From Streptomyces davaonensis JCM 4913 (GTDB lineage: Bacteria; Actinomycetota; Actinomycetes; Streptomycetales; Streptomycetaceae), in assembly GCF_000349325.1 (NCBI RefSeq), contig NC_020504.1, positions 4,808,053 through 4,872,052 on the forward strand: DNA of 64,000 nucleotides. The letters run 5' to 3'. Within the stretch, counting starts at the first letter, position 1; the number at the start of each line of letters is the position of its first letter. Under the pieces are notes generated by a model. It was not told where the DNA came from. It saw only the letters and a list, made by a program, of their open reading frames with translations, and searched no databases. The position numbers were made by a program, and so were the translations under genes. Positions 34,863 through 37,368 of this stretch are shown piece after piece.

Positions 34863-35000
34863 CGGGGCCTCCTCGGGCTTCCAAGATCGACGTACGTGCT
34901 TTCAAAGCACCACCCCGCACGCCCCTGCACCAGTGCGCCGGTCCGTCCGGGTGAGGAAAACCCGTTGGCCGAGCACCCGGCCCCTCGCTACGGTCCCTCC

Positions 35001-35057
35001 ATGAAGCGCGCCCACCCGTCGAGCACGACGACGCCGGACACGGTCCCGGCGCGCTGA
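35001..35057 (+). CDS. Thr-codon-containing leader peptide (attenuator)
   Basis: A small frame ATG...TGA coding for the 18-residue peptide MKRAHPSSTTTPDTVPAR. Three ACG threonine codons stand in a row with a fourth three codons later. It ends 17 nt before a strong hairpin and 93 nt before a threonyl-tRNA synthetase gene. This is the layout of ribosome-mediated transcription attenuation, where scarcity of charged tRNA-Thr would stall the ribosome and prevent the terminator. No strong Shine-Dalgarno sequence is visible; translation could be near-leaderless. The role is inferred from layout. Confidence 0.65.
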   Translation: MKRAHPSSTTTPDTVPAR

Positions 35058-35074
35058 CACCTGAGCAGTGACGA

Positions 35075-35100
35075 AGCCCCGGGGCGAGTGCCCCGGGGCT
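35075..35100 (+). terminator. Attenuator hairpin upstream of the threonyl-tRNA synthetase gene
   Basis: AGCCCCGGGGC (35075-35085) and GCCCCGGGGCT (35090-35100) form a perfect 11-bp stem with a 4-nt loop, followed by CTGTCG. It lies between the leader peptide stop and the synthetase start. Each arm is itself nearly palindromic, so alternative pairings are possible. Confidence 0.7.
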
Positions 35101-35150
35101 CTGTCGTTCGCACCCTCCGGCCGCTCGCCCTCCGAACGAGGGAGTACGAG

Positions 35151-36365
35151 ATGCACGACCACCGCCGGCTCGGCCGGGAACTGGAGCTGTTCGACACCGA
35201 TCCGCTGATGGGCGCGGGGCTGCCGTACTGGCTGCCGGACGGCGCCGTCGTACGGCACGAACTGGAGGAGTACGTCCGGGAGGTGGAACGGGCCGCCGGA
35301 TACCGGCATGTGTACTCACCCGTGCTCGGGAAACGAAAGCTGTACGAGACCTCCGGGCACTGGTCCCACTACAGCGACGACATGTTCCCACCGATGCCGC
35401 TGGGCGCGGAGGAGGTCGTCCTGCGCCCCAGCCTCTGCCCGCACCACGCGCTGATCTATCGCTCCCGCTCCCACAGCTACCGCGAACTGCCCCTGCGCAT
35501 GGCCGAGTTGGGCGACATGTACCGCTCCGAGCTGTGGGGCGCGCTGGGCGGGCTGACCAGGGTCCGCGCGATCCGCCTCAACGACGCGCACATCTTCTGC
35601 ACCCTGGAGCAGGCGGCCGAGGAGGCCCGCGCCGCCCTGGAGCTGATCGGCCGCGCCTACGCCGACCTCGGCATCCGCGCCGCCCGCTACCGCCTCTCCC
35701 TCCCCGGCGAGGGCGGCAAGTACGTCGCCGACCCGGAGCTGTGGCGCCGGGCGACCGCTCTGCTGCGGGAGGCTCTGGACGGCATCGAGTACGAGGCGGT
35801 CGAGGGCGAGGCCGCCTTCTACGGCCCCAAGATCGACGTGCAGATCACCGATCCCGTCGGCCGGGAGTCCACCCTCTCCACCGTCCAGATCGACTTCCAC
35901 CAGCCCGAACGCTTCGATCTGCACTACATCGGCCCCGACGGCGCGAAACACCGGCCGGTCATGGTGCACCGCAGCGTCATCGGCAGCGTGGAACGGGCCG
36001 TCGCCCACCTCATCGAGACCCACGGCGGCGCCTTCCCGGCCTGGCTGGCCCCCGTCCAGCTGATCGTCCTGCCGGTGGCGGACGCCCAGGTGGAGCAGGC
36101 CGCGGAGGTCGTACGGCGGGCCTGCGCACTCGGGCTCCGGGCCGAACTGGCCGCTCCGGCCGACGGTTCCCTGGGTGCCCGGATCCGGGCGGCGCGGCTG
36201 GTGCCGTACCAGGCGGTGATCGGGGAGCGGGAGGCGGGCGGCGACCTGGCGGCCGTACGGCTGAGGGACGGGCGGCGGCCCGGGGCGCTGCCCGTGGTCG
36301 AGTTGCTGCACCGGATCGGCGAGCGGGTGCGGGCTCGCGGGGCCGAACTGTGGGCGGCTGCGTAA
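35151..36365 (+). CDS. thrS: Short threonyl-tRNA synthetase without TGS/editing domains
   Basis: A 404-residue class II synthetase holding only the catalytic core and anticodon-binding domain. Full-length enzymes exceed 640 residues and carry N-terminal TGS and editing domains. The zinc ligands Cys96 (LRPSLCPHH), His147 (LNDAHIFC) and His273 (MVHRSVIGS) keep exactly the 51- and 126-residue spacing of E. coli Cys334, His385 and His511. Motif 2 is MYRSELWGALGGLTRVRA and motif 3 is RPVMVHRSVIGSVERA. The ATG at 35151 follows GAGGGAG. It is probably a second synthetase of the cell, induced by low charged tRNA-Thr through the upstream leader. It cannot clear Ser-tRNA-Thr in cis. Confidence 0.88.
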   Translation: MHDHRRLGRELELFDTDPLMGAGLPYWLPDGAVVRHELEEYVREVERAAGYRHVYSPVLGKRKLYETSGHWSHYSDDMFPPMPLGAEEVVLRPSLCPHHALIYRSRSHSYRELPLRMAELGDMYRSELWGALGGLTRVRAIRLNDAHIFCTLEQAAEEARAALELIGRAYADLGIRAARYRLSLPGEGGKYVADPELWRRATALLREALDGIEYEAVEGEAAFYGPKIDVQITDPVGRESTLSTVQIDFHQPERFDLHYIGPDGAKHRPVMVHRSVIGSVERAVAHLIETHGGAFPAWLAPVQLIVLPVADAQVEQAAEVVRRACALGLRAELAAPADGSLGARIRAARLVPYQAVIGEREAGGDLAAVRLRDGRRPGALPVVELLHRIGERVRARGAELWAAA

Positions 36366-36402: not shown

Positions 36403-37368
36403 GTGAACGGTCAGCCCATCCCGGTGATCATCGACTGCGACACCGGCGTCGACGACGCCCTGGCCCTGCTGTTCGCCGTACGGCATCCGGGTCTCGATGT
36501 GCGGGCGGTGACCTGCGTGGCCGGGAACACCGACGTCGAGGGCGTCGTCCGCAACACGCTCACCGTGCTGGAGCAGGCCGGGGCCGCGGACATCCCGGTC
36601 GCGCGGGGCGCCGAGCGGCCGCTGATCGAGCCGGTGCGTACCGCGAGCCATGTCCACGGCGCCGACGGCATGGGCGACCTGGGGCTGCCCGCGCCGACCC
36701 GGCGCCCGGTGGACGTGGACGCGGTGACGCTGCTGCGCCGCGAGATCCTGGCCTCGCCGAGGCCGGTCACGCTCATCCCGACGGCCCCCCTGACGAACAT
36801 CGCCCTGCTGCTCCGTACGCACCCCGAGGTGGTCCGGAACATCGAGCGGATCGTGTTCATGGGCGGGGCGGTGGAGGTCGGGAACGCCACGCCGGTCGCG
36901 GAGTTCAACGTCTGGCACGACCCGGAGGCCGCGGCGATCCTGCTCACCGCCGGGGTGCCGATCACGATGTACGGCCTGGACGTGTTCCAGCGGGTGCTGG
37001 TCCCGGCCGCCGATGTGCAGCGCCTGCGGGCGAGTTCCGAGCCGCGGCTGCGGCTGGCCGGTGAGCTCCTCGCCCACCGGCCCTCGGCGCCCGACCCCGA
37101 CGGCGACGACCCGTCCGGCGGGCTCGGTGACGCGGGTGCGGTGTGCGCGGTCGTCGACCCGGCCGGCATCACCACCAGCCTCCTTCCGGTCGAGGTCTCC
37201 CTCGCCCCCGGCCCCACCCGCGGCCAGACCATCGTCGACCGCCGCCCGCGCCCCGGTGAGGCGGAGATCCACCACGGGGAGCGCGAACTTCAGTTGGTGG
37301 ACGTGGCGTTGGACGTGGATGTGGACCGCTACGTGAAGCTGTGGCTGTCGGTGGTCGAGGGCGCCTGA
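36403..37368 (+). CDS. Nucleoside hydrolase
   Basis: A 321-residue inosine/uridine-preferring nucleoside hydrolase-like enzyme. The calcium-binding signature DCDTGVDDALAL is at residues 11-22. TLIPTAPLTNIALLLRTHPE and the FNVWHDPEAAAILLTAG segment, with a later ligand, complete the site. It cleaves the N-glycosidic bond of a nucleoside for base salvage. It starts at GTG 36403, 37 nt after the threonyl-tRNA synthetase gene, with GAGGGAG upstream, and may share its transcript. It would then also fall under the attenuator. Confidence 0.9.
   Translation: MNGQPIPVIIDCDTGVDDALALLFAVRHPGLDVRAVTCVAGNTDVEGVVRNTLTVLEQAGAADIPVARGAERPLIEPVRTASHVHGADGMGDLGLPAPTRRPVDVDAVTLLRREILASPRPVTLIPTAPLTNIALLLRTHPEVVRNIERIVFMGGAVEVGNATPVAEFNVWHDPEAAAILLTAGVPITMYGLDVFQRVLVPAADVQRLRASSEPRLRLAGELLAHRPSAPDPDGDDPSGGLGDAGAVCAVVDPAGITTSLLPVEVSLAPGPTRGQTIVDRRPRPGEAEIHHGERELQLVDVALDVDVDRYVKLWLSVVEGA

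Follow-up and report, generated by a model that had tools for sequence, protein, structure and literature searches.

A candidate attenuator with threonine codons upstream of a short threonyl-tRNA synthetase gene in Streptomyces and other actinomycetes

Streptomyces davaonensis JCM 4913 carries a short threonyl-tRNA synthetase (ThrRS) gene, and elsewhere in the same genome a full-length thrS that is 43% identical to it. The short gene is preceded by a very small reading frame with several threonine codons and by a hairpin. What does this arrangement sense, and how could a synthetase be made under the shortage that would switch it on? The window analysed here is the whole stretch of 64,000 nucleotides (contig NC_020504.1, positions 4,808,053 to 4,872,052). 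A first-pass annotation of it had described a frame of 18 residues with four ACG codons, an 11-bp stem with a tetraloop, and the ThrRS ATG 50 nt further on, and all of these are present as described (Table 1). It proposed that ribosomes stalling at the Thr codons would favour an alternative structure and permit readthrough when charged tRNA-Thr is scarce, for example under a ThrRS inhibitor. Judged by comparison among genomes, many soil actinomycetes have a Thr-reading frame and a switchable fold before a spare ThrRS, and the sensor codon is nearly absent from the enzyme gene. Taken as a whole explanation, we consider it likely that the leader is a ribosome-mediated attenuator, which senses a shortage of charged tRNA-Thr and controls this backup ThrRS.

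Table 1. Features of the leader and synthetase locus in the window
Feature	Position	Strand	Remarks
WblC/WhiB7-type box (putative), GAAAAC	34956..34961	+	3 nt 5' of the -35 element; published consensus, exact spacing
Promoter, TTGGCC, 18-nt spacer, TACGGT	34965..34994	+	Ends 6 nt 5' of the leader ATG; start is leaderless
Leader peptide frame, MKRAHPSSTTTPDTVPAR	35001..35057	+	18 codons; ATG at 35001, TGA at 35055-35057
Region 1 (CGCCGG)	35032..35037	+	Pairs with 35046-35051; nearly invariant alignment columns
Region 2 (GTCCCGGCG)	35043..35051	+	Partner is region 1 or region 3
Region 3, 5' arm of the hairpin	35075..35085	+	11-bp stem, all pairs perfect; covariation
Region 4, 3' arm of the hairpin	35090..35100	+	Covariation in helix 3:4; loop GAGT at 35086-35089; 50 nt from hairpin end to ThrRS ATG
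Region 5 (CGCTCGCCC)	35122..35130	+	Pairs with the hairpin loop and arm, 35082-35090
Region 6, ThrRS Shine-Dalgarno	35138..35144	+	Partial pairing with region 5 possible; weak basis
Short ThrRS (thrS2 type)	35151..36365	+	Nine Thr codons, all ACC; no TGS or editing domain found

The leader frame and its promoter

Three of the four ACG codons of the window leader are consecutive (35025-35033) and the fourth stands at 35040-35042. A 27-base core pattern occurs once in the own genome and is present in 166 of 392 genomes of the genus; read in reverse, it matches none of the 392. There were 242 core-motif loci, from which ten were excluded (decayed: L174-L178, L180 and L208; no start by script: L109, L157 and L192), leaving 232 with an intact ThrRS start, 213 of them distinct. 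The first-pass annotation had tied its reading to the conservation of frame and Thr codons in close relatives, and both are conserved well beyond these. An in-frame start is found in 212 of the 213 distinct loci, which come from several actinomycete families, the exception being L027. Three consecutive Thr codons precede a Pro codon in 207 distinct loci and two do so in 5, and ACG accounts for 630 of the 631 codons of these Thr runs, in loci that were selected by the core motif. On this comparison, the conserved frame and Thr run are not a matter of chance.

The leader is selected as RNA, in addition to its selection for the peptide frame. A PAR ending is found in 198 peptides, coded as CCG (Pro), GCG (Ala) and CGC (Arg) every time. 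Another end is found in 14 of the 212 leaders, and in three of these, L132, L217 and L233, a frame shift alters the peptide end, yet CCCGGCGCGC is preserved. These fixed codons, together with the sequence retained under a shifted frame, argue that region 2 is preserved as RNA. Within the run, the first and second ACG codons fall outside helix 1:2, so this helix cannot account for the choice of codon there. The start of the frame at 35004-35012 (AAGCGCGCC; CAGCGCGC in relatives) is complementary to its end at 35049-35056 (GGCGCGCT), which is a possible extra pairing.

The short ThrRS, or a match of similar level (E up to 1e-100), occurs in 186 of the 392 genus genomes, about ten of which have E-values near the level of the main ThrRS and may not carry the short gene. 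At class level (E up to 1e-105) it is found in 48 of 296 genomes and 15 of 114 genera. Loci with a genus name, taken from the best 80 of 569 matches, include Streptomyces, Kitasatospora (L076) and Streptacidiphilus (L108); other loci, from the wider comparison, come from families labelled f1, f3, f19, f20, f21 and f39. Loci of other families, with a ThrRS about 62-79% identical to that of the window, retain the frame and a core that is almost unchanged, and the most distant ones (L257 and L258, about 55% identical) keep the Thr run and differ in the rest. As the loci were chosen by the core motif, this set says nothing on the frequency of short ThrRS genes without a leader. Five short-ThrRS loci lie outside the core-motif counts; by eye, L026, L182, L257 and L258 have frames with Thr codons and L144 has none. 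Additionally, some genomes of the genus have a clear short ThrRS and no exact match to the pattern; of these, thirteen were inspected (all but G103 and G368), and among the thirteen the leader is absent only in G041. At L144, which is the same gene as L359, unrelated sequence replaces the leader frame, and the hairpin and the downstream segment are kept. The ThrRS frame of this gene is open, with eight Thr codons, all ACC. By eye, the main thrS has no such leader in the 1.8 kb up to its core.

Seven leaders have no intact short ThrRS next to them: five lie in genomes without one, and two are second copies. Pieces of a ThrRS follow the leader in L174, L177 and L179, none follow in L175, L178 and L180, and L176 stops 167 bases after the core, at the end of the contig. 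The backup gene thus seems to have been lost repeatedly (L174-L180). Control of other genes by such a leader was considered and rejected, none of the seven stray leaders, whose following sequence was identified in part, being shown to control another gene.

The upstream sequence gives the leader its promoter context. In the window, the order is GAAAAC, CCG, TTGGCC, 18 nt, TACGGT, 6 nt and the ATG. The upstream sequence was long enough for comparison in 222 distinct loci. A TANNNT -10 box ends 6-7 nt 5' of the leader start in 217 of them, and GAAAWY stands at the exact WblC spacing in 91, including the window's own locus (L001); at 42 shifted positions per locus, GAAAWY was found zero times in the 222. 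The published WblC/WhiB7 promoter pattern is GAAAWY, 3 nt, a -35 element TKGMNN, 16-19 nt and TANNNT (PMC7157823). The window agrees with it in box, spacing and -10 element, and deviates at the fourth base of the -35 element TTGGCC. The promoter looks to be of the WblC (antibiotic stress) type, with a putative binding site, and S. coelicolor thrS2 is named among the WblC-activated genes (PMC7157823).

Judged by promoter geometry, the transcript should begin at the leader ATG in the window. We take SCO3778 to be thrS2. In cells under ethanol stress, a sigma-E site has been reported at SCO3778, which encodes a threonyl-tRNA synthetase (PMC10771440). A transcript start downstream of 35100, which would speak against the reading of the first-pass annotation, disagrees both with the promoter geometry and with RNA-seq of a leader of the same type, S. 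lividans TK24 thrL, which starts at its ATG and has one hairpin without a U-tract (PMC8079986).

The same promoter bears on a different possibility, namely that the leader senses slow translation in general. Any ribosome-targeting antibiotic that stalls ribosomes early would then switch the gene on, with the Thr codons adding specificity, much like the uORFs of antibiotic-resistance genes and of wblC. The WblC-dependent look of the promoter agrees with this, as do the membership of thrS2 in a regulon induced by ribosome-targeting antibiotics and the uORF attenuation of wblC itself (both PMC7157823). Such a sensor needs no Thr codon, yet Thr stands before region 1 in 212 of 212 frames, almost always as ACG at the core-motif loci, and the purge of ACG from the enzyme's own gene, described below, indicates tRNA-Thr. 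We regard a general sensor as improbable, and continue with a leader that senses tRNA-Thr.

Alternative helices between leader and synthetase

From the 232 loci, 126 representatives (at most 90% identical) were taken, and 122 of them were aligned. L093 and L106 (arm lost) and L196 and L242 (length) were left out of the alignment, so that the hairpin counts omit two counter-examples. In the window, the segment 34990-35150 has a minimum free energy of -78 kcal/mol (z -2.58 over 200 shuffles, 2 of which fold equally well). Helix 3:4, the hairpin itself, is paired in 94.7% of cells across the 122 sequences, with 7 of 13 pairs changed on both sides and 28 double-changed cells against 5.0 in shuffles. 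Helix 3:5, in which the loop and part of the arms pair with region 5, is paired in 93.7% of cells and in at most 62.6% when slid; here 7 of 9 pairs are double-changed, giving 36 such cells against 2.7 in shuffles. The first-pass annotation had not described helix 3:5. Both helices exceed all 500 shuffles in paired cells and double changes, and 3:5 does so in covariation score as well, in shuffles that ignore relatedness. In 39 loci with unusual loops, the pairing with the locus's own downstream segment is at least that of the consensus loop in 30 and weaker in 9. Helix 2:3 is paired in 98.5% of cells, in columns that are nearly invariant and too uniform to reveal covariation.

A few loci depart from this arrangement. 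No hairpin was found by pattern in L055, L093, L100 and L106, and in L093 and L106 one arm is deleted and a short palindrome remains. In L183 and L184, the stem of regions 1 and 2 is closed by a UUCG loop. A pairing of region 2 with region 4 can also be drawn. As for known RNAs, a T-box or another such element was rejected, since no Rfam family reaches the gathering threshold in the window.

Helix 3:5 could be an H-type pseudoknot that sits atop hairpin 3:4, a stable element and not an alternative to it. The loop and the pair that closes it do form the centre of the covarying columns, and the LEU element, a conserved pseudoknot before leuA in Actinobacteria, provides a precedent (PMC1262725). 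Against this, the complementarity extends three pairs into the stem, with 98.9% of cells paired, many of them as G-U. These three stem pairs are used by 3:5, and a pseudoknot could not use them while 3:4 is closed. A pseudoknot therefore seems unlikely to us, and we take 3:5 as an alternative to the hairpin.

The way in which the hairpin acts raises a further alternative. A run of at least five T in the 8 nt after the stem is present in just 12 of the 122 sequences, and no intrinsic terminator was called in the window. With no adequate U-tract, action of the hairpin by termination and readthrough is not supported as it was stated, and the terminator claim is unproven. The switch could thus be purely translational, with a hairpin that is no terminator: 3:4 would free region 5 to hide the Shine-Dalgarno sequence, and 3:5 would expose it. 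The missing U-tract agrees with this, as does the statement of the S. lividans authors that termination at the thrL hairpin is unclear (PMC8079986). The covariation of 3:5 agrees as well, and pairing of region 5 with the Shine-Dalgarno segment is possible in 77.7% of cells, a share that drops to 49.7% or less in slid positions. The covariation of 5:6, however, is weak. The Shine-Dalgarno sequence is more open in the 3:5 form in 110 of 119 cases (mean 0.26 rising to 0.47), but swapped controls are nearly equal (0.29 to 0.45), and the window shows no effect, with an openness of 0.48 in the 3:5 form and 0.49 in the 3:4 form. Hiding of the Shine-Dalgarno sequence as a general fact was dropped after a weak test against shuffles (0.26 against 0.31, in 89 of 145, with 56 of 145 not more hidden). 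The pairing of regions 5 and 6 is suggestive only. A purely translational switch is in our judgement somewhat doubtful, and an attenuator that may act on translation too is preferred.

Threonine codons in the synthetase gene

The window ThrRS has 404 aa and scores 431.7 bits against TIGR00418 (cut-off 383.65). Pfam finds in it a catalytic core and an anticodon-binding domain only, and no editing domain. Of the solved structures, the one that it matches best is 1nyq_A, which is likewise a threonyl-tRNA synthetase, presumably from Staphylococcus aureus. By eye, L119, L157, L161, L183 and L254 have ThrRS N-termini rich in His and Asp (HDHDHD-like in L119 and L183); such stretches in some short ThrRS are perhaps metal-binding.

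Across 143 distinct short ThrRS genes, ACG is used for 3 of 1308 Thr codons, compared with 118 of 507 in the core of the main ThrRS (30 genes) and 791 of 2318 in the downstream hydrolase (98 copies). The difference between short and main ThrRS has a Fisher p of about 1e-65, which overstates independence, as the genes are related. The 34 of the 143 genes that lie outside Streptomyces-labelled or Streptomyces-grouped loci have ACG in 2 of 307 Thr codons, and 17 more distant short ThrRS genes have it in 1 of 94, with a Thr content of 1.39%. The scarcity of ACG is present both in Streptomyces and in other groups. Threonine itself is rare in the short ThrRS, with a content of 2.27%; the main core has 4.26%, and genes picked by script in the window have 7.2%. 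The hydrolase is a nucleoside hydrolase gene at 36403-37368, 37 bp after the ThrRS; a by-eye lookalike persists in L175, where the ThrRS is missing.

Could this avoidance be general codon adaptation or composition, unrelated to the leader? ACC is indeed the commonest Thr codon of the window, at 64%, and the lost-leader locus L359 has 0 ACG in 8 Thr codons, which are too few to decide. Against composition, ACG makes up 31.7% of 1145 Thr codons in 40 script-picked window genes (ThrRS excluded), and none of the 39 genes with at least 5 Thr codons is without ACG. In the own genome, reading frames script-picked from PF00009 and PF00587 matches gave 18 genes for factors and synthetases, with ACG in 205 of 644 Thr codons and none ACG-free; in the 12 PF00009 (EF-Tu family) genes, the share is 20-48%. 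The short ThrRS does not avoid other G-ending codons either (shares of 0.57 for Pro, 0.45 for Val and 0.44 for Arg), and since these are used normally, the avoidance of ACG is specific to Thr. An origin in composition is very unlikely in our view, and we relate the avoidance to the leader. Among the tRNA genes read in this genome, 59 of 72 matches, those for Thr are GGT (two), CGT (one) and TGT (one).

An enzyme gene nearly without the sensor codon is what would be expected of an emergency gene that is needed when charged Thr tRNA is short. The reason for the partition, as we infer it, is that a synthetase nearly free of ACG and poor in Thr would be translatable in the very condition that switches the gene on.

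The proposed switch and related systems

The dependence of the helices on the ribosome was modelled in the 122 sequences by minimum-energy folds of the growing RNA, with the position of the ribosome varied. With the ribosome at the first Thr codon, 2:3 is predicted in 114 of 122 folds, at the third Thr codon in 110, and at the leader stop in 0. Without a ribosome, just after region 3 has been made, 2:3 is predicted in 57 and 1:2 in 64. These folds support mutually exclusive helices that depend on the position of the ribosome. Once region 4 has been made, 3:4 is favoured, and a stalled ribosome does not change this in 112 of 122 sequences. The mean difference in stability between the two states is 14 kcal/mol in favour of 3:4 over 3:5, and 3:5 is the more stable one in just 6 of 122. 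Since 3:4 wins at equilibrium and 3:5 is seldom the more stable, the ON form has to depend on kinetics, which is also how known attenuators work.

From the predicted folds and the comparison, we infer the direction of the switch, the order of folding and the role of 3:5 as follows. Transcription would start at the leader ATG from the WblC-type promoter. With ample Thr-tRNA, the ribosome would reach the leader stop and cover region 2, and hairpin 3:4 would form (OFF). The shortage would be sensed above all on the tRNAs that read ACG. A ribosome waiting at the ACG run would cover region 1, and the freed region 2 would pair with region 3, delaying hairpin 3:4, so that the gene is expressed (ON). 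Helix 3:5 probably locks the ON form by keeping region 3 off region 4, and may also keep region 5 off the Shine-Dalgarno sequence, for which the window's own fold gives no support. The earlier proposal thus probably stands as attenuation: its stalling-dependent alternative structures agree with the comparison and the predicted folds. Termination and readthrough at the hairpin do not fit as well, given the U-tract and a helix 3:5 that reaches toward the ribosome binding site.

This can be sharpened into an isoacceptor-specific alarm, in which loss of charge on the ACG-reading tRNA-Thr alone is sensed and the ACC-coded, low-Thr synthetase escapes the shortage. The third helix would lock the antiterminated transcript in a translatable form, and an antibiotic-stress promoter would be combined with control of both transcription and translation. 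We offer this version tentatively, and would sooner doubt than assert it.

T-boxes sense tRNA charging. The Bacillota thrS T-box likewise controls a ThrRS from upstream of its start (PMC12452182), and the window has no T-box match. Classical attenuators, namely the enterobacterial trp, his and thr and the Streptomyces trpE, trpS and leuS systems (PMC1262725), have regulatory codons and mutually exclusive helices 1:2, 2:3 and 3:4 in common with the window. Unlike them, the window has no U-tract and has an extra covarying helix, 3:5, toward the ribosome binding site. In the available text of PMC1262725, the conserved structures reported for Actinobacteria are limited to Trp, Cys, Leu and ileS. 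The E. coli thr leader uses ACC (PMC1183508), whereas the window leader uses ACG. In the E. coli theory of Elf and Ehrenberg, leaders use the synonymous codon whose tRNA first loses its charge (PMC1183508); here, beyond that theory, the target gene is also purged of the sensor codon, as seen in 143 genes.

The closest relative is the thrL-thrS region of S. lividans TK24, whose published 18-residue thrL peptide is identical to that of L183 and L184 (MKRVRPFLETTPGFVPAR). It shares with the window the leader type before thrS, the leaderless start and the hairpin after the stop. The part of that report available to us (PMC8079986) concerns one genome and two Thr codons, and in this part alternative helices, conservation, codon analysis or a remark on the short paralogue do not appear. 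In the open literature, subscription journals apart, this S. lividans leader is the only description found, a search for experiments on Thr or ThrRS inhibition turned up none, and the available parts of PMC4833913 and PMC12452182 hold nothing on this leader locus. As far as our searches go, what is new to the open literature is how widespread the leader is, a third helix with covariation, and the codon partition.

A second ThrRS reserved for stress is also known from Anabaena, where T2, without working editing, is made under stress beside a constitutive full-length ThrRS (PMC4787780). The window ThrRS resembles it in that no editing domain was found, and for S. coelicolor thrS2 activation by WblC is reported (PMC7157823). 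In contrast to the zinc-dependent Zur control of T2 (PMC4787780), the window ThrRS is preceded by a Thr-codon leader and a promoter that looks to be of the WblC type. The leader-bearing thrS, alaS and trpS of S. lividans (PMC8079986) share their names with the WblC-activated thrS2, alaS2 and trpS of S. coelicolor (PMC7157823). Going by gene names only, stress-driven backup synthetases under leader control are possibly a class.

This locus offers a natural and widely conserved case in which the sensor codons and the coding codons of one amino acid are separated within one transcript, and it makes the theory of selective charging directly testable beyond enterobacteria. It also hints at a way in which a spare synthetase can be produced while charge is lacking on the very tRNA that it serves, and ties the WblC antibiotic-stress programme to amino-acid-specific control.
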